Below, one piece after another: positions 6,731 to 64,000 of a stretch of DNA of 64,000 nt. The stretch is taken from assembly GCF_001700965.1 (NCBI RefSeq), contig NZ_CP016756.1:2532501-2596500 (forward strand). The letters are read 5' to 3'. The translations under genes were made by a program, and so were the position numbers. Source of the DNA: Stenotrophomonas nitritireducens (GTDB lineage: Bacteria > Pseudomonadota > Gammaproteobacteria > Xanthomonadales > Xanthomonadaceae). A model generated the notes under the pieces. It did no database searches, was not told the DNA's origin, and was given only the letters and a program-made list of their open reading frames with translations. Each line of letters starts with the position of its first letter. Within the stretch, counting starts at the first letter, position 1.

Positions 6731-7526
6731 GGTGGATGCCGATCCTCAGCCATTGCGCGACGCCGGCGCGTAGCCACAGCGCCTGCTGGTCCATGGCCAG
6801 GGCTTCCAGCAACGGCAGCGCCGGGTGCATGGCGTTGTCGCCGAACAGCTGCCCAAGCGGGCCTTGTTCGTTGCGCTGCTCGGTTGCCGGCGGCGGCTGC
6901 GTGTGCACGCTGAGCTGCAGCGTGGGCAGGCCCACGCAGGCGCTGCGTGAGAGCACGAACGCGGCACCGAGCAGGCCGGTGCTGGGCGAAACCTCGGCTG
7001 CCGGGCCGCTGGCGTTGCCGTCATAGGCGACCAGCAGCACCGCTTCCTCGCCGGCGTGCAACTGCACCATGGCTTCGAGCAGGCCCTGCGCAAAGCTGTA
7101 GCTGCCGGCGCTGATCGCGGTGGCGGCGACATGCGCGCCTGCACCGATGGTCCAGTAGCCGGCGGCGGCGTTGTGTACCGAATTGTGGAATTTTGTGGGC
7201 GAGATCGCAGCCGGGTCGATAGCCAGCGTGGCGCACATGTAATCGGTGATGGTCAGCTCACCGTGGGTGGAGGTGAACACCGCCGGCAGCACGGCCGGTG
7301 CACGGTCGGCGGCCTGGCAGGCGGCCAGCGCCGCTTCCAGTGCGACCGCCACGGTGCCGGGCGCGCGGCGCCGCTCGTTGGCCGCCAGCAACTGCGGCGA
7401 AGGGCGCGCCGGCGGATCGAGCGGGCGTTCACCCTTGCGCATCCAGGCGCAGGCGCTGTCCCAGTCGGGCAGGCCGCTGCCCCAGAAACCAATACCTTCC
7501 AGCGTTGCTTCCAGCATCTGCGTCAT
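6723..7526 (-). CDS. Chain-length-factor-like beta-ketoacyl synthase homologue (ApeC-like)
   Basis: A 267-residue thiolase-fold protein resembling the N-terminal half of a ketosynthase. Aligned by eye with the neighbouring ketosynthase, the nucleophile cysteine of ATACSSS is replaced (ATAISAGS), so it should not condense acyl chains itself. This is the expected feature of a chain-length-factor-type partner, which usually forms a heterodimer with the active ketosynthase. The conserved block FHNSVHNAAAGYW is typical of the short aryl-polyene version. It starts within the ketosynthase stop (ATGA overlap) and overlaps the glycosyltransferase start by eight bases. The heterodimer role is inferred from family and gene order. 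Confidence 0.78.
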   Translation of the reverse strand: MTQMLEATLEGIGFWGSGLPDWDSACAWMRKGERPLDPPARPSPQLLAANERRRAPGTVAVALEAALAACQAADRAPAVLPAVFTSTHGELTITDYMCATLAIDPAAISPTKFHNSVHNAAAGYWTIGAGAHVAATAISAGSYSFAQGLLEAMVQLHAGEEAVLLVAYDGNASGPAAEVSPSTGLLGAAFVLSRSACVGLPTLQLSVHTQPPPATEQRNEQGPLGQLFGDNAMHPALPLLEALAMDQQALWLRAGVAQWLRIGIHHE

Positions 7527-8758
7527 CCTGCCCTGCCAAACACCAGCGAGCAGTTGTTGCCGCCGAAGCCAAAGGAATTGTTCATTGCGTAATCGATCTG
7601 CGCCTGCGCGTTTTCAAAACGGATCTGCGGGCCGCAGGCGGGATCGGGTATCTCGCTGTTGAGCGTGCCCGGCAACAGGCCATCGCTCAGCGCCAGCAGT
7701 GCGAACACCGATTCGACGATGCCGGCCGCGCCCAGGGTGTGGCCGGTCCAGCCCTTGGTCGAGCTTGCATGCAAGGTGGCGGGAAACAGCGCGGCCACCG
7801 CTGCGGCCTCGATGCTGTCGTTGGCCGGGGTCGAGGTGCCATGCAGGTTCAGGTAACCCACCGCGCCGGCGTCGATGCCGGCGCGCTGCAGCGCGGCCTG
7901 CATGGCCAGGCGTGCGCCCAGGCCTTGCGGATGGGGCGCGGACATATGGTGCGCGTCGCTGGATTCGCCATAGCCCGACAACTGCAGCGGCGTGGCCGGG
8001 CCTGCGCCGGCACGTTCCAGCACCGCGTAGCCGCCGGCTTCCCCCAGCGACAGGCCGACCCGGCGCGCATCGAAGGGCTGGCAAGGGGTAGGTGCCACCA
8101 GCTGCAGGGCGTTGAAACCGAACAACACGCTGCCGCACAGGGTGTCCACGCCGCCGACCAGGGCGGCATCGGCCAGCCCGGCGTTGATCAACCGCGCGGC
8201 CTGCGCGAAGACCTTGGCGCTCGAGGAACAGGCGGTGGCGACGGTCACGCAGGGGCCGCCGAGGCCGGTGGCCGCCTGCACGAAATCGCCCAGCGAATGC
8301 GGGGTATGAATGCGCGGGCGCTTGAGTGCCTGCGGAAAATGCAGGCTGCCATCGGCAGCGGTTTCCAGCTGGGTATAGGCTTCTTCGGTTGCGCCGATAC
8401 TGGACGTGGAGGTGCCCATGACCACCGCCACGCGGTCGGCGCCGTGACGCATGCGCACCTGCTGCACGGCCGCCAGCACGTCGTCCTGCTGCAGCGCGTG
8501 CCACGCCAAGAGGTTGTTCCTGGAAGAGAATTCCGCAAGTTCCGGCGGCAGTTCCAGGTGGTCCAGGGCGTCCACCCGGCCGATCCAGCAGGCCAGCGAC
8601 GCGTCGCCGAAGTCATTCGGTCGCAGCCCGCTGCGCTGTTCACGCAGCGCCTGCCGTTGTGCGTCCAGCCCCGCACCCAGCGCCGTGGTGGCGGAATGGG
8701 CCAGGATGTTCAGCGGCGCCAGGCGCGGCGGTGATGCAGATGTCACGGCATCTTCCAT
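7523..8758 (-). CDS. Beta-ketoacyl-ACP synthase of the pigment cluster
   Basis: A 411-residue condensing enzyme with the full catalytic triad: cysteine in TVATACSSSAKVF, histidine in LNLHGTSTPAND, and histidine in KGWTGHTLGAAG. The C-terminal NNSFGFGGNNCSLVF is the usual ketosynthase end motif. It would elongate the aryl-polyene chain with malonyl-ACP. The start at ATG 8758 (MEDAVTSASPP) is preferred over an upstream ATG because the extra 26 residues do not look like ketosynthase sequence. It is first in the leftward operon with the chain-length-factor and glycosyltransferase genes. The promoter should lie in the 205-base gap to ycgL. Confidence 0.85.
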   Translation of the reverse strand: MEDAVTSASPPRLAPLNILAHSATTALGAGLDAQRQALREQRSGLRPNDFGDASLACWIGRVDALDHLELPPELAEFSSRNNLLAWHALQQDDVLAAVQQVRMRHGADRVAVVMGTSTSSIGATEEAYTQLETAADGSLHFPQALKRPRIHTPHSLGDFVQAATGLGGPCVTVATACSSSAKVFAQAARLINAGLADAALVGGVDTLCGSVLFGFNALQLVAPTPCQPFDARRVGLSLGEAGGYAVLERAGAGPATPLQLSGYGESSDAHHMSAPHPQGLGARLAMQAALQRAGIDAGAVGYLNLHGTSTPANDSIEAAAVAALFPATLHASSTKGWTGHTLGAAGIVESVFALLALSDGLLPGTLNSEIPDPACGPQIRFENAQAQIDYAMNNSFGFGGNNCSLVFGRAG

Positions 8759-59093: not shown

Positions 59094-59203
59094 GCGCCCC
59101 GACCTAGTGTGAAATAGTGGCCTGGCGCACAAATTGATTTATTTTGATGATAGGCTCGCGAGATTACTCGTCTGGCATGGACGGGCGGTCCATGAGGCAG
59201 GGA

Positions 59204-60280
59204 ATGAGCGGCATGGGAACAGGGGGTCTGGCACTGGAGTCTGAGCTTCCCGCCGCTATGTCGGCCGGGGATGCCGCGCTGCGCGCGCAATTGTCGCCGG
59301 TGGAATTTGACCTGTTTGCCCAGTACGGGGTCCGCCGCACGTTGCAGGCCGACGAACTGCTGTTCCGCCGTGGCGATCTGGGCAGCTCGATGTTCATCAT
59401 TGTCAGCGGCACCGTCAGCCTGGACTTCGGTGCCGGCCTGGCGCCCAAGCCCATGGGCAGCAGCGACTTCTTCGGCGAGCTTGGTCTGTTGATCGAGCGC
59501 CACCCGCGCTCCTGCGACGCCCGTGCCAACTGCGACAGCGTCCTGCTGGAAATCACCCATGCCAACTTCCATCGCCTGATCGACCAGGACCCGGCGATGG
59601 TGGTGTTTTTCCTGCGGCGCACGCTGTCGCGGGTGGTGTCCAGCGAACAGCGGCTCATTGCCCAGCTCAGCCGCCGCAACCACGAGCTGGAATCCGCGCT
59701 GGGCAACCTGTACAGCACCAACCACGAACTGCACCACACCCGCGAGCTGGTCTACAGCGATGACCTGACCGGGCTCAGCAACCGCCGGGCGCTCACCGCC
59801 TACCTGAAGAAATCACACCGTTCCGGCCATCGCCCGCGCGGCCTGCTGCTGATCGACTGCGACGACTTCAAGGGTTTGAACGACTCTTACGGTCACCTGG
59901 CCGGCGACCACGCATTGCAGTGCTTCGGCCGCATCCTCGCCTCGGTGGCCGGCAAGGACGACATCGCCTGCCGCCTCGGTGGCGATGAATTCTGCGTGCT
60001 GCTGATGGACGCCGACGCCGACGGCCTGCAGCGTACCGCCGACTTCGTGCTGGACGCGGTGCGCCACCTGATCGCCTATCCCGGCGCCACGGTGGGTGCA
60101 TGCTCGCTGAGCATCGGCATGGTGTTGATTGATGAAGACCATCACTGGAACGATTCGTATTCCCGCGCCGACAAGGCGCTGTACGAAGCCAAGCGCGATG
60201 GTGGCAACCGTGCGCAGTGGTGCCGGGAAGGATTCGAAGGCCTTGAAGCATTCGGTGTAGATCATGTCCAGCGAGACTGA
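59204..60280 (+). CDS. cNMP-binding GGDEF protein, cyclic GMP-responsive diguanylate cyclase (XC_0249-like)
   Basis: About 358 residues. The N-terminal half has a cyclic-nucleotide-binding fold (QADELLFRRGDLGSSMFIIVSGTVSLDFG, then SDFFGELGLLIERHPRSCDARA). A helix (QRLIAQLSRRNHELESALGNLYSTNHELHHTRELVYSDDLTGLSNRRAL) links it to an intact GGDEF domain with RLGGDEFCVLL; the allosteric RxxD site is not evident. In Xanthomonas campestris the homologous pair XC_0249/XC_0250 works this way: cyclic GMP binds the cNMP domain and raises cyclic di-GMP synthesis. Upstream in-frame starts (59144, 59177, 59192) exist; 59204 is preferred because of GAGG at 59193. It overlaps the next gene by 17 bases. Confidence 0.85.
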   Translation: MSGMGTGGLALESELPAAMSAGDAALRAQLSPVEFDLFAQYGVRRTLQADELLFRRGDLGSSMFIIVSGTVSLDFGAGLAPKPMGSSDFFGELGLLIERHPRSCDARANCDSVLLEITHANFHRLIDQDPAMVVFFLRRTLSRVVSSEQRLIAQLSRRNHELESALGNLYSTNHELHHTRELVYSDDLTGLSNRRALTAYLKKSHRSGHRPRGLLLIDCDDFKGLNDSYGHLAGDHALQCFGRILASVAGKDDIACRLGGDEFCVLLMDADADGLQRTADFVLDAVRHLIAYPGATVGACSLSIGMVLIDEDHHWNDSYSRADKALYEAKRDGGNRAQWCREGFEGLEAFGVDHVQRD

Positions 60281-62873
60281 CGCCGCCTCATCCGATCGTC
60301 AGCTCAAGACGCTGGTGCTGACCGATCTATGCGACTCAGTGGCGCTGACCGCACGCATTGGCGATGCGGCAGCGGCCGAGCTGTTCCGAAGCCTGGATGT
60401 GCGCGTACTGCAGCTGCTGCAGCGCTGGAAAGGACGTTTGATTGATCGCTCCGATGGCATGCTGCTGCTGTTCGATGTGCCTGTGCACGGCCTTGGTTTT
60501 GCTCTGGATTATCTGGACGCGCTGGCGGAGATCGGCAAACAGCGGCAATTGCCGCTGCAGGCACGGATCGGCATCCATGTCGGTGATGTGCTGTTCTGGC
60601 GCAATGATGACGATGCGGTAGCGGCGGGCGCCAAACCATTGGATGTGGAGGGCGTAGCCAAGCCAACCGCCGCCCGACTGATGGCGCTGGCGCGACCAAA
60701 CCAGATCCTGCTCTCGGCAGTGGCCGAAGGCCTGCTGCGTGCCAGTCAACGTGAGCTGGGCGAACGCGGTACCGGCTTGCAATGGAAGTCACACGGCCGC
60801 TGGTGCTTCAAGGGCCTGCCAACACCGCAGGAAGTGTTTGAAGTGGGTGTTGCCGGCCGCGCTCCATTGCGCGCGCCGGCACGTTCGAGCAAGGCCTGGC
60901 GTATGTTGCCGCTGTGGCGGAGGCCAGTGGCCTTGGTCGCTGAGTTGATGCTGGTCGTGGTTGCTGTTGCCGTGGTCTGGATACTGGTACGTCCAGAACC
61001 AGCCATCGCCTTCACCGAGCGCGATTGGATAGTGGTGGGAGATCTACGCAACCTAACCGGGCAGACGGTTCTCGATGAATCGCTGCGGCAGGCGTTCCGG
61101 ATCAGCCTGGAACAATCGAAGTACGTCAACGTACTCAGCGACTTGAAGGTCCGCGACACGCTGTCGCGGATGAGGAAGGACCCAGAGAAGGTTCTGGTTG
61201 ATCGCGCGGTTGCCTCCGAAGTCGCGTTGCGGGATGGCGCGCGTGCAGTTGTGCTTCCGCTGGTGTCGGAGGTGGGCGGGCGCCTACGTGTCACCGTGGA
61301 GATCGTTGACCCGGTTACGCAGAACACGGTGTATACGGAATATGCCGACGGACGTGGACTCGATTCTGCCTTGGCTTCGGTAGACCAGGTAACTGCGCGT
61401 CTGCGGGGCCGTCTCGGTGAGGCGATTGCATCGATCGGGCGTGACTCCAGGCCGCTGCCAGAAGTCAGTACTCGCGATCTAGACGCTTTGCGAGCCTATG
61501 CGATGGGTCAGGAGGCCTTTGGCAAAGGACAGTACAAGCAAGCATTGGGGCTGTATGAGCATGCGGTTTCCTTGGATAAGGATTTCGCGCTGGCGCACCT
61601 GGGGATGCTGCGTGCACTCAACGCAACCGAGCAGCTTCCCAAGGGATTGCTGAGTCTGCAGAAAACCCAGGCGATGACCAGTCGCCTCTCGCCCAGGGAG
61701 GCCATGTACATGCAGGCTTGGGAAGTACAGATCAACAACCCTGGTGACGCATATCAAAAATGGCGTCAGATGTCCGACCTCTATCCAGACTTCTACGCGG
61801 CTGCTGCCAACGTCGGGTATGCCTTGGAAATGGAGAACCGGTACCAGGAAGCACTTCCCTATATCCGTCGCGCTTCGGAGTCGCGCTATGAGTTCGCTCC
61901 GCTCTCGCAGGAAGCGCTTGGGCGCATGTCCTTGGCGTTGGGAAACTATGGAGATGCAGCAACCGCATTTTCAAGAGCGTCAGAAAGTGGATTGGTGACC
62001 GCCGCGGTGTGGCAGGCCAACCTGAATGCTGCCCAAGGTAATTTCCAAGAGGCGGAGCGCTTGTGGCCGCGAGATACAAAGCTGGCAGCGCCCCACTTTG
62101 ATCACGTCTCTCATTTCCTGGACAAGGGTGAGCTGCAAGCTGCTTCCTTGGAGGCGCAGCGGTTGCTGCAGGCATTGCCCACCGATGGCAGTAGATTCCG
62201 GCAAGGGCAGATACAACTTGCTGTGTTGCAGTGGATGTCCGGTAATCGAAGGGGTGCCTTGGGCATTACTCGGAATATTGTTCGCGATTCGATGGTAGCG
62301 CTTGATGGGGCTGCAGGTCTTACCGCGCGTGGCGAGGCCATTACTGCGGCTTACGGTGCGATCCTGGCGCAGCGTCTCGGCGATCACGAACTGGCCCGGC
62401 AGCTGATTGTGCGCCTGGAGCAGTCGCCGCAGATTGTAGCCATGCAGCCGGTGGGCGGGTTCCTGCAGGTCCTCAAGGCACGCGAATCCATGGCTTCCGG
62501 TAACGCAGGGTTGGCGCTGGAGGGGTTGGTTTCCACTCTCGGACAGCATGAGTCATTCCAGCTGCGGGAAGCATTGATGGAAGCCTACGTGGCGGAGGGC
62601 AAACCCGAAGCTGCTTTGCGCCAGGCTGACTGGATGGTGTCGCACCGGGGCTGGGCATATGTCGAGCATGGCGGATGCGGATGGTGTGGCCAGAGCCTCA
62701 ACATCGCCGATTCCAATCTGGCACGTCTCAGGAAAATTGAGTTGCTGGCACAACTTGGGCGCCGCGAAGCGGCGCTCAAGGAACTCCAGTCGTTTGATGC
62801 CTACTGGAAAAATCGGACATTGCCCGACTACTTGCGGGTCCGCCGCGAAGCGCTGCCTTCCACATTCAGTTGA
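60264..62873 (+). CDS. Class III nucleotidyl cyclase/TPR membrane protein (XC_0250-like, peptide modification system cyclase type)
   Basis: An 869-residue protein. Residues 10-190 form a class III cyclase domain with candidate metal aspartates D21 (LTDLCDS) and D64 (DRSDGM) and an AARL block (residues 136-139). The residue usually asparagine four places before the arginine is proline (P134). A membrane helix lies near residues 225-248, followed by a FlgO/TolB-like domain (about 255-400) and several TPR-like repeats. In X. campestris the linked XC_0250 makes cyclic GMP. Cyclases of this layout are also known beside modified-peptide genes. The 3' end overlaps the precursor gene on the other strand by 46 bases. 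Confidence 0.82.
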   Translation: MSSETDAASSDRQLKTLVLTDLCDSVALTARIGDAAAAELFRSLDVRVLQLLQRWKGRLIDRSDGMLLLFDVPVHGLGFALDYLDALAEIGKQRQLPLQARIGIHVGDVLFWRNDDDAVAAGAKPLDVEGVAKPTAARLMALARPNQILLSAVAEGLLRASQRELGERGTGLQWKSHGRWCFKGLPTPQEVFEVGVAGRAPLRAPARSSKAWRMLPLWRRPVALVAELMLVVVAVAVVWILVRPEPAIAFTERDWIVVGDLRNLTGQTVLDESLRQAFRISLEQSKYVNVLSDLKVRDTLSRMRKDPEKVLVDRAVASEVALRDGARAVVLPLVSEVGGRLRVTVEIVDPVTQNTVYTEYADGRGLDSALASVDQVTARLRGRLGEAIASIGRDSRPLPEVSTRDLDALRAYAMGQEAFGKGQYKQALGLYEHAVSLDKDFALAHLGMLRALNATEQLPKGLLSLQKTQAMTSRLSPREAMYMQAWEVQINNPGDAYQKWRQMSDLYPDFYAAAANVGYALEMENRYQEALPYIRRASESRYEFAPLSQEALGRMSLALGNYGDAATAFSRASESGLVTAAVWQANLNAAQGNFQEAERLWPRDTKLAAPHFDHVSHFLDKGELQAASLEAQRLLQALPTDGSRFRQGQIQLAVLQWMSGNRRGALGITRNIVRDSMVALDGAAGLTARGEAITAAYGAILAQRLGDHELARQLIVRLEQSPQIVAMQPVGGFLQVLKARESMASGNAGLALEGLVSTLGQHESFQLREALMEAYVAEGKPEAALRQADWMVSHRGWAYVEHGGCGWCGQSLNIADSNLARLRKIELLAQLGRREAALKELQSFDAYWKNRTLPDYLRVRREALPSTFS

Positions 62874-63169
62874 ATGGGGATCATGGAAAGGCCATCTGTC
62901 AGCATTTTCCTGATTTCTTTACGGGACTTGGCGATGCTTTCTTTAGTTGCCAAGCGTTCCACTGAGAGACTGGCGCGCAGGTAGTCAAGCTCAGCGGTGG
63001 GATCATTCCCGGCTGGCGCATGCCCAATTTGGAGAAGGGCGGCGGCAGGGTCTTTTTTGAAGGCGCGCCTGAAGCCGTTGTCTGTGCTCAAAAGGTCGAG
63101 AAGATGATCGGCAATGGTGGGTTTGAGTGCGATATGTGTTGTTGGCATGCCGGGTTTCTTCGTTGCCAC
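62828..63169 (-). CDS. Putative ribosomally made modified-peptide precursor (nitrile-hydratase-leader type)
   Basis: A 113-residue protein from GTG 63169, with AAGGA six bases upstream. Residues 19-49 (IADHLLDLLSTDNGFRRAFKKDPAAALLQIG) show the F..DP..AL...G pattern typical of nitrile-hydratase-like leader peptides. The C-terminal part is basic and Ser/Thr-containing, ending GSASRRTRK, and has no cysteine. It lies between the cyclase (overlapping, convergent) and a divergent SagB-like dehydrogenase, the neighbourhood expected for a putative modified peptide. The core region and final product are not known. Confidence 0.65.
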   Translation of the reverse strand: MATKKPGMPTTHIALKPTIADHLLDLLSTDNGFRRAFKKDPAAALLQIGHAPAGNDPTAELDYLRASLSVERLATKESIAKSRKEIRKMLTDGLSMIPIQLNVEGSASRRTRK

Positions 63170-63286
63170 GTTGTTTCCTTCGCTGCAGACTTCTGGTTGT
63201 GGTGAGGGGGCGCGGGAGTGGCGTCTGACCGGCTTGTTCCGCTCTCATTCAGGAATCTTGCAACTATACGACTGAGGAGCGGGTGT
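63170..63286. promoter_or_regulatory. Divergent control region of the peptide cassette
   Basis: 117 bases between the start of the precursor (leftward) and the start of the dehydrogenase (rightward). It contains a shared AT-richer centre (GAATCTTGCAACTATACG near 63252-63270) and the Shine-Dalgarno GAGGAG at 63274-63279 for the rightward gene. No clear operator is seen. Confidence 0.5.
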
Positions 63287-64000
63287 GTGAAGGTGAGGCG
63301 TTGTTCAATCCTGCATCTGGAGCCGCGGGAGCAGGTCGAGTTCAATCTGGCTGCATTGCTGTCGGGCGGGGATGGCTTGAAACGCAACTGTTATTGGGTT
63401 GCTCTTGCCCCGCATCTTGACAATGAGGTGATCGTCGATGAGGCCGAGTGCATACTGCTTGGGCGGCTCAGTCCGGAGGCGTGGACCGATGGCGCCGACT
63501 TCAGAAAGAACGCCGGCGCATCGTTGCGCTCATTGTTGCGGAAAGGTCTGGTTATCGGCCGGCACGCACGCTATTTGGCGTTCCGCCGGCAGGACGAGCG
63601 GATAAGGAATGCTCATTGGCACCCGCTTGCGGCAACCTTCAATGCATTCACGCGGTGGAGGGATGCCGATGCCGTACAGGCGATGGTGGATACCGGAACT
63701 TCCACTGCAGCGGAGCTGAGGCAGCAGCTCGGATCGCCCCCGGCAGAAGTCGTAAACCGCGTCGCGGAAAGCGAGCGCCTTCCGCTTCCTGATCATCAGG
63801 GAAACGCGTTCGATCTTTTGTTGGGACAGCGCGTTACCTGCCGCAACTTCGATTCGTTGCGTCCACTGCCAGCGACGATGCTGTCGCGCCTGCTCGGGCG
63901 GGTCTTCGCCGCACGTTCCTCGGTGAGGGTGACGGAAGATACCGTCTTCCTGAAGAAGAGCAGCCCTTCGGGTGGTGGCTTGCATCCTATCGAGGCATAC
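63287..64000 (+). CDS. SagB-like peptide maturation dehydrogenase, 3' end outside window
   Basis: 238 codons are visible from GTG 63287, with Shine-Dalgarno GAGGAG at 63274-63279; the frame is open to the window end. Residues 1-150 include LHLEPREQVEFNLAALLSG and a helical region (LRQQLGSPPAEVVNRVAE). The end, TCRNFDSLRPLPATMLSRLLGRVFAARSS...LKKSSPSGGGLHPIEAY, matches the start of nitroreductase-fold SagB-type dehydrogenases (FMN-binding SPSGGxLHP). SagB enzymes oxidise azolines to azoles in modified peptides. It is divergent from the precursor gene. No YcaO cyclodehydratase is seen in the window. Confidence 0.75.
   Translation, partial: MKVRRCSILHLEPREQVEFNLAALLSGGDGLKRNCYWVALAPHLDNEVIVDEAECILLGRLSPEAWTDGADFRKNAGASLRSLLRKGLVIGRHARYLAFRRQDERIRNAHWHPLAATFNAFTRWRDADAVQAMVDTGTSTAAELRQQLGSPPAEVVNRVAESERLPLPDHQGNAFDLLLGQRVTCRNFDSLRPLPATMLSRLLGRVFAARSSVRVTEDTVFLKKSSPSGGGLHPIEAY

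Follow-up and report, generated by a model that had tools for sequence, protein, structure and literature searches.

A mosaic locus in Stenotrophomonas nitritireducens and its relatives points to a probable receptor guanylate cyclase for an exchangeable modified peptide

Introduction

Which signal feeds the bacterial pathway that runs from cyclic GMP (cGMP) to cyclic di-GMP? The question is raised by four adjacent genes at the right end of a 64,000-nucleotide stretch of the Stenotrophomonas nitritireducens genome (contig NZ_CP016756.1, positions 2,532,501 to 2,596,500; the window hereafter). They encode a cyclic nucleotide monophosphate (cNMP)-binding GGDEF protein, a membrane nucleotidyl cyclase with tetratricopeptide repeats (TPR), the precursor of a ribosomally synthesized and post-translationally modified peptide (RiPP) and a SagB-like dehydrogenase. 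The first two resemble XC_0249 and XC_0250 of Xanthomonas campestris, where, as An et al. (2013, PMC3770947) showed, XC_0250 produces cGMP, which stimulates XC_0249 to make cyclic di-GMP. In their accessible text, this paper and a 2019 review (PMC8042644) describe effects of the Xanthomonas cGMP pathway on biofilm and virulence and name no input signal for it, and the review still terms the TPR domain uncharacterized. The words peptide, XC_0251, XC_0252, nitroreductase, operon and periplasm are absent from the main text of PMC3770947. Here we report that the locus is a mosaic, in which the precursor follows the sensor and the dehydrogenase but hardly the output half, and we consider it probable that it works as a self-signalling circuit in which a guanylate cyclase serves as receptor for a polymorphic RiPP pheromone, with cassettes swapped at a fixed output half.

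Results

The right end of the window is organized as follows:

59204..60280, plus strand: cNMP-binding and GGDEF diguanylate cyclase of the XC_0249 type (Pfam PF00027, PF00990)
60264..62873, plus strand: class III nucleotidyl cyclase-transmembrane-CsgG/TolB-like-TPR protein, 869 aa, of the XC_0250 type (TIGR04510)
62828..63148, minus strand: precursor related to nitrile hydratase leader peptides (NHLP-related RiPP precursor, TIGR04509), 106 aa, no Cys, ATG start
63149..63286, no strand: putative divergent promoter region separating the precursor and dehydrogenase genes, judged from gene orientation
63287..64000 and on to 64468, plus strand: SagB-like FMN peptide dehydrogenase (TIGR04511), 393 aa, starting at GTG 63287

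The open reading frame (ORF) of the cNMP-GGDEF protein spans 59144..60280 on the plus strand, with its likely start at ATG 59204 or 59213, and its 3′ end overlaps the cyclase/TPR ORF by 17 bases. The precursor gene is convergent with the cyclase gene, their 3′ ends overlapping, and divergent from the dehydrogenase gene. The source genome is one 4.54 Mb contig, which gives the dehydrogenase gene in full past the window edge; it is intact and ends at 64468 in window coordinates (6788..7969 of locus L002). Searches with NCBIfam hidden Markov models at their curated cut-offs, and with Pfam, gave 1030 bits for the cyclase against TIGR04510 (cut-off 400), 77 bits for the precursor against TIGR04509 (cut-off 34) and, for the dehydrogenase, 550 bits against TIGR04511 (cut-off 240) and 133 bits against the SagB model TIGR03605 (cut-off 78). 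The first protein matched the Pfam families cNMP_binding and GGDEF with 60 and 129 bits. Three adjacent proteins, each above its curated cut-off, thus belong to the NCBI TIGR04509/TIGR04510/TIGR04511 system. An earlier sequence-only reading of this DNA had called an XC_0249/XC_0250-like pair, a nitrile-hydratase-leader-like precursor and a SagB-like dehydrogenase; all these calls were borne out by the models, and the right-hand gene, complete once read past 64000, is not an unrelated nitroreductase. One correction to that reading is that the precursor lies on the minus strand. A precursor-family profile of 101 seeds, the window precursor among them, was also searched against the window ORFs of at least 40 aa and returned the precursor ORF at E 3e-25, the runner-up reaching 0.09. 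Because identical order and orientations recur over many genera of the order, the locus is not a chance arrangement, and the four genes are confirmed as a real locus. Among these genera is g5, which we infer to be Xanthomonas because its locus L034 has the published XC_0249/XC_0250 residues at the published numbers.

The mosaic structure becomes visible when the cyclase/TPR protein is divided into its parts:

60306..60851, plus strand: catalytic domain, residues 15-196 (Foldseek matches to the Rv1900c and Ma1120 cyclases)
60924..60986, plus strand: single transmembrane (TM) helix, residues 221-241 (hydropathy; a helix in the AlphaFold model)
61023..62870, plus strand: predicted periplasmic sensor, with an alpha/beta (CsgG/TolB-like) part at residues 254-394 and a TPR solenoid at residues 406-868

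Statistics and residue comparisons covered 102 of 119 loci, those with all four genes in range. Omitted were L016, L017, L018, L020, L060, L066, L071, L076, L079, L080, L087, L107, L108 and L148, which lack one gene in range, L146, the broken locus of genome G321, and L030 and L135, where no precursor or dehydrogenase fell inside the allowed distance. From each multi-copy locus we took the best cyclase and the precursor and dehydrogenase nearest to it. Dereplication left 94 of the 102 loci for Mantel and within-genus correlations. At 50% identity the sensors fell into 38 clusters among the 102 loci. Types were compared within g5 on 25 loci, 24 of them typed; inclusion of the broken G321 depresses the sensor value within type B. 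Among the 24, identity of the cNMP-GGDEF protein was 88-92% within types and 89-94% between them, and that of the cyclase catalytic domain 90-95% and 91-97%, respectively. The TPR part of the sensor showed 60-82% within types and 20-33% between, the precursor 72-81% and 20-37%, and the dehydrogenase 77-80% and 32-49%. The catalytic domain thus tracks the locus backbone rather than the peptide type. In agreement, correlations to precursor identity over 417 within-genus pairs were 0.96 for the sensor and 0.91 for the dehydrogenase, against 0.35 for the catalytic domain and 0.28 for the cNMP-GGDEF protein. Partial Mantel tests given cNMP-GGDEF (94 loci) yielded 0.73 for sensor-precursor and 0.78 for sensor-dehydrogenase, no permutation of 1000 being as high. 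When the dehydrogenase was controlled as well, sensor-precursor still stood at 0.44 (0/1000 permutations as high), above the 0.25 obtained for precursor-dehydrogenase given sensor and cNMP-GGDEF. The cNMP-GGDEF proteins were at least 85% identical and yet the sensors less than 55% identical in 183 locus pairs (138 in g5, 24 in g1, 13 in g8, 5 in g6 and 3 in others), and only 66 pairs combined cNMP-GGDEF identity of at least 85% with sensor identity of at least 55%.

The DNA shows the same pattern. With 22 g5 loci arranged in a tree by the DNA of their fixed half, the five types need 10 changes (the least possible being 4), close to the average of 10.7 for shuffled types, 76 of 200 shuffles being as low as 10; a single clade was rejected for T1 (p 1e-10), T4 (1.5e-5) and T5. 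Genomes G243 and G175, of the same genus, are 96.5-96.7% identical in nucleotides as far as roughly codon 269 of the cyclase gene, and 99.1% identity resumes 250 (G243) or 370 (G175) bases past the dehydrogenase gene; between these flanks, the sensor-precursor-dehydrogenase block cannot be aligned as DNA. The drop in identity between types falls inside the cyclase gene, from the TM helix onward. The window itself shows both sides of the mosaic. It matches Stenotrophomonas sp. PS02298 (L026) at 87% in cNMP-GGDEF and 89% in the catalytic domain and at 33% in the sensor, 45% in the dehydrogenase and 34% in the precursor; with Stenotrophomonas sp. ATCM1_4 (L010) the values are 69, 70, 77, 73 and 71%. 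In L026, a split dehydrogenase with 79-80% identity to that of the window follows the locus's own, different cassette; in L009, another cassette is followed by an additional precursor and dehydrogenase (76%) that are of the window's type. L058 and L059 hold a 641-aa sensor without a catalytic domain, 67-73% identical to the L023 sensor and of a type that differs from their own cyclase. These extras are apparent relics of replaced cassettes, and new cassettes apparently enter close to the TM border, displacing the old receptor or peptide. As in a pherotype cassette, the sensor co-varies with the peptide gene and the output domains hardly do so, L065 being an exception.

The sensor is predicted to be periplasmic because the single TM helix has more K/R on its N-terminal side. 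In 101 of the 102 loci the TM segment exceeds the hydropathy threshold (a second segment passes in 6), and K/R is richer before it than after it in 101 as well. Together with the AlphaFold model of the window cyclase (mean predicted local distance difference test score, pLDDT, 82.5; predicted template modelling score, pTM, 0.58), these data predict an extracytoplasmic receptor domain. The CsgG/TolB-like label is our own, based on the fold and on an LpoB match below threshold. The TPR part of the window protein also contains a CGWC motif (62676-62687, cyclase residues 805-808), perhaps a disulfide or metal site. A CxxC conserved across sensors, which had been expected at first, was discarded: CG.C occurs in only 25 of 102 loci, whose sensors belong to five of the 38 clusters (13 T0, 5/5 T4, 5/5 T5, one T16 and one T18).

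The output half retains the residues of the published relay. In g5 locus L034 the cyclase (886 aa) has D41, D71, L73, A150, L157 and A161 as published for XC_0250, and the cNMP protein, counted from an internal Met, has F73, E90, L91, H98, V142, N145 and E146 at the XC_0249 positions; this close XC_0249/XC_0250 orthologue is accompanied by precursor and dehydrogenase genes, arranged as usual. The window cyclase keeps the metal Asp residues D41 and D71 together with A150, L157 and A161, both metal Asp and A150 being conserved in 102/102 loci. Position 73 is M in the window and, over the 102 loci, L in 73, F in 12, M in 9, V in 7 and Y in 1. The window cNMP protein, whose best PDB match is the 5h5o cNMP domain, retains the cGMP contacts F73, E90, L91, H98, V142 and E146. 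The likeness to XC_0249/XC_0250 therefore extends to the two kinds of protein, their adjacency, catalytic and cGMP-contact residues and domain order; the published pathway differs in having been described without peptide genes, whereas the window cassette has a precursor and a dehydrogenase. Of the 102 cNMP-GGDEF proteins, 101 lack the RxxD inhibitory site that would be expected ahead of GGDEF, which suggests that the diguanylate cyclase escapes product inhibition.

We then consider how widely the locus is distributed. Among 299 genomes of the order, TIGR04511, TIGR04509 and TIGR04510 were each found above cut-off in 82, and all three in 80; the dehydrogenase was above cut-off in 81 of the 82 precursor-positive genomes. 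The exact order of cyclase, oppositely oriented precursor and dehydrogenase was present in 54 of the 82 dehydrogenase-positive genomes, and the others had two precursors (8), an inverted dehydrogenase (6) or tandem, scattered or incomplete genes (14). A cNMP-GGDEF gene lay upstream of the cyclase at 73 of 81 loci (80 relatives and the window's), and GG[DE]EF was found in all 73 of these proteins, the motif being a condition of inclusion in the 102-locus residue comparison. The remaining eight loci were L060, L071, L076, L079, L080, L087, L107 and L108, of which L080 and L108 end at contig edges. In a sample of 398 genomes of the phylum, eight exceeded the dehydrogenase cut-off, all from this order. 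Within g5, a close cNMP orthologue was present in 29 of 35 genomes, 28 of which have the dehydrogenase above cut-off (split or partial in G305 and G321); the exception, G325, has a truncated dehydrogenase gene, and none of the six genomes without the orthologue has the dehydrogenase above cut-off.

Some loci depart from the usual arrangement. In G305, G321 and G325 (L135, L146 and L148) the dehydrogenase is interrupted or truncated, the cNMP-GGDEF ORF is intact and two of these genomes retain a full-length cyclase ORF, as though loss had begun on the peptide side. L087 (G237) has, within 20 kb, a single complete cyclase, five dehydrogenases of which four are complete and one is partial, nine TIGR04509 matches and no cNMP-GGDEF gene. 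L060 (G091) has five near-identical tandem precursor ORFs followed by the dehydrogenase and then the cyclase, which matches TIGR04510 only from profile position 126. Two Streptomyces records, L016 (9407-11206) and L017 (6455-8509), contain precursor(s) and dehydrogenase above cut-off in divergent arrangement, the dehydrogenases being 54-56% identical to that of the window, a likely case of cross-phylum transfer of the peptide module. Distant dehydrogenase relatives (L121-L128) were set aside, their 3.3-3.8 kb stretches having no precursor-like ORF above noise (best E 0.018).

Discussion

The circuit that we propose would work as follows. The SagB-like dehydrogenase, for which the gene, the fold and a conserved motif were found, would modify the precursor in the cytoplasm, and the trimmed, modified peptide would arrive in the periplasm. 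There, as type-locked swapping suggests, it would bind the alpha/beta and TPR sensor of the membrane cyclase, and the bound sensor would activate the cytoplasmic cyclase domain to make cGMP. Binding of cGMP to the cNMP domain of the adjacent GGDEF protein would then raise cyclic di-GMP synthesis. From cGMP formation on, these steps are published for the Xanthomonas proteins (PMC3770947), and conserved residues indicate them for the window. Between strains, the sensor would be exchanged along with precursor and dehydrogenase as a single cassette. A more specific claim, namely that this is a Gram-negative modified-peptide pheromone acting through a periplasmic alpha/beta and TPR receptor and a cGMP to cyclic di-GMP relay, with dozens of specificities swapped among species of the order, seems to us evenly poised between true and false. 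The sequence-only reading had left two alternatives, that the peptide feeds the cyclase or that the cyclase gates maturation; the swapping of sensor, precursor and dehydrogenase as a block favours the former.

Peptide-to-receptor signalling is favoured because neither an environmental ligand nor a peptide that is only a product would couple the sensor to the type of precursor. This is also what speaks against a relay that senses an environmental or host cue and, through cGMP and cyclic di-GMP, turns on the peptide as an output such as a bacteriocin. Such an output would suit the opposite strands of cyclase and precursor, which hence are not one transcription unit, and the many transcripts reported as altered in XC_0250 and XC_0249 mutants in the accessible text of PMC3770947. 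In 80 precursor-dehydrogenase intergenic regions, however, no enrichment of Clp/CRP boxes was found, other regulators lying outside the search, and we regard this explanation as unlikely. The strongest sceptical reading is that only precursor and dehydrogenase are matched, as substrate and enzyme, and that the sensor was carried along by recombination between conserved flanks. The genes are indeed adjacent, with homologous flanks on either side, but the sensor-precursor correlation survives control for the dehydrogenase and exceeds that of precursor and dehydrogenase given the sensor, the drop in identity sits within one gene, and there are orphan sensors as well as whole cyclase-precursor-dehydrogenase duplicates. 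We hold hitch-hiking to be less likely still. Least likely of the three, in our judgement, is a competition or kin-discrimination locus, with the peptide a toxin that the periplasmic domain senses or neutralises and with negative frequency-dependent selection driving the swapping. Selection of that kind likewise yields many alleles, and block swapping and apparent relics would fit it; yet the domain is fused to a catalytic domain whose metal Asp residues are intact at every locus compared, and PADLOC returned no match for cyclase, precursor or dehydrogenase.

Several observations weigh against the self-signalling circuit. Physical linkage by itself makes neighbouring genes co-inherit, and the statistics were drawn from loci selected for having all four genes in range. 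The output half is not wholly free of the peptide type: catalytic domain-precursor given cNMP-GGDEF gave 0.15 and cNMP-GGDEF-precursor given the sensor 0.19, each with 0/1000 permutations as high. The L065 sensor is 64-66% identical to those of L088 and L093, the precursors being just 31-32% identical, and sensor and precursor agreed in their top neighbour in 47 of 94 loci, compared with 27 of 94 for sensor and cNMP-GGDEF. N145 of the N-E dyad is S in the window (N in 74, S in 20 and G in 8 of the 102 loci). No exporter or peptidase was found by Pfam in 11 further ORF clusters near the locus, defined as common to at least five of 27 genus representatives, five of the 11 being without a Pfam match. 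The genome likewise has no C39 peptide exporter, exporters of other kinds elsewhere lying outside that search. Finally, the relay occurs without precursor or dehydrogenase in G278, and no cyclase or cNMP-GGDEF match is present in the 21 and 18 kb around the Streptomyces L016 and L017 modules. Because each part is thus found alone, peptide module and relay are separable, yet they are nearly always together in this order.

Exchange of a block beside a fixed output half is a signature of polymorphic peptide-pheromone systems. In Gram-positive bacteria, the agr and comQXP pherotype cassettes keep a fixed output domain and exchange the ligand precursor together with its modifying enzyme and the sensor domain. 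The locus described here shares this block swap and differs in its Gram-negative RiPP, in a membrane guanylate cyclase that takes the place of a histidine kinase, and in that ligand binding is proposed from swapping. To our knowledge, pherotype-like peptide signals come mainly from Gram-positive bacteria. Rap receptors are TPR proteins too, cytoplasmic and not cyclases, unlike the transmembrane cyclase with predicted periplasmic TPR described here. For Rap-Phr systems, the accessible part of PMC5199041 describes a linkage of peptide receptors to peptide genes, along with horizontal transfer and the duplication of peptide genes inside the locus; the latter two resemble the cassette relics.

The view of the sequence-only reading that no such combination had been described needs qualification, given that three of the four families are already modelled at NCBI as one putative peptide modification system, of which three of the window genes are clear members, and that the cassette is not peculiar to this genome; our comparison with that system is one of model names. 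A literature search on the family names returned one paper, whose accessible text refers to a peptide maturation dehydrogenase in a different connection. In the searched literature, which consisted of titles and abstracts with subscription papers mostly outside it, nothing of this system is described beyond XC_0249/XC_0250. The models for three genes are thus already known, and the cassette swapping and the suggested link between peptide and cGMP appear to be new. If the proposal is correct, the input of the Xanthomonas cGMP pathway would be a self-made peptide, these Gram-negative bacteria would use a pherotype-like RiPP signal received by a guanylate cyclase analogous to the peptide receptor cyclases of animals, and three NCBI families named only 'putative' would gain a function. 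Specificity would then be open to test with matched and mismatched types.

Additional features of the locus

The variable end of the precursor is the part that may become the peptide:

62831..62902, minus strand: variable C-terminal tail of the precursor, residues 83-106, with motif PIQLN and type-shared tail motifs, likely the core region

Tail motifs are common within sensor types and some recur across genera; the four motif classes were defined post hoc after viewing the tails, and 26 of 102 tails fall in none. The window precursor is one of 13 without Cys among 102 loci, the other 89 having Cys. A model of the L010 orthologue of the dehydrogenase (mean pLDDT 82.2) matches ThcOx, BmdC and McbC in fold, and its N-terminal beta-sheet followed by helices is, in our own reading, compatible with a RiPP recognition element. 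The WKYR motif, whose KY pair we take to be catalytic in McbC, is present in 98/102 loci. The enzyme thus shares fold, motif and N-terminal sheet-plus-helix domain with the azoline dehydrogenases McbC, SagB and ThcOx of thiazole/oxazole-modified microcins (TOMMs, azole RiPPs). It differs from them in its setting, the window genome having no YcaO match (0 matches) and the window precursor no Cys, and membership of the TOMM class was ruled out on these two grounds. For the same reasons, its reaction would not be the usual azoline oxidation at Cys.

Three further candidates were considered and rejected. A dedicated C39 exporter was dropped since the only C39 peptidase found in the genome has 259 aa and no ABC part and lies away from the locus; its neighbours are an Asn/Thr-rich repeat ORF of 513 aa and an ORF of 443 aa whose Pfam match, of an outer-membrane type, is weak, perhaps together an amyloid-type cluster. 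Pycsar or other defence membership was discarded because cyclase, precursor and dehydrogenase had no PADLOC match at E 0.01; the cNMP-GGDEF protein gave four weak matches (23-30 bits) through its cNMP domain, and the cyclase does not qualify as a PycC-type pyrimidine cyclase of the Pycsar anti-phage system. Clp feedback on the precursor-dehydrogenase promoter was abandoned on the lack of box enrichment there. Upstream of the cNMP-GGDEF gene, 22.5% of the 102 loci have a CRP/Clp-like box (TGTGA-N6-TCACA, at most two mismatches), compared with 6.3% in mononucleotide shuffles, a background that ignores the relatedness of the loci. Further upstream neighbours include an isocitrate lyase gene in 17 of the 27 genus representatives and, likewise in 17 of 27, a malate synthase gene.

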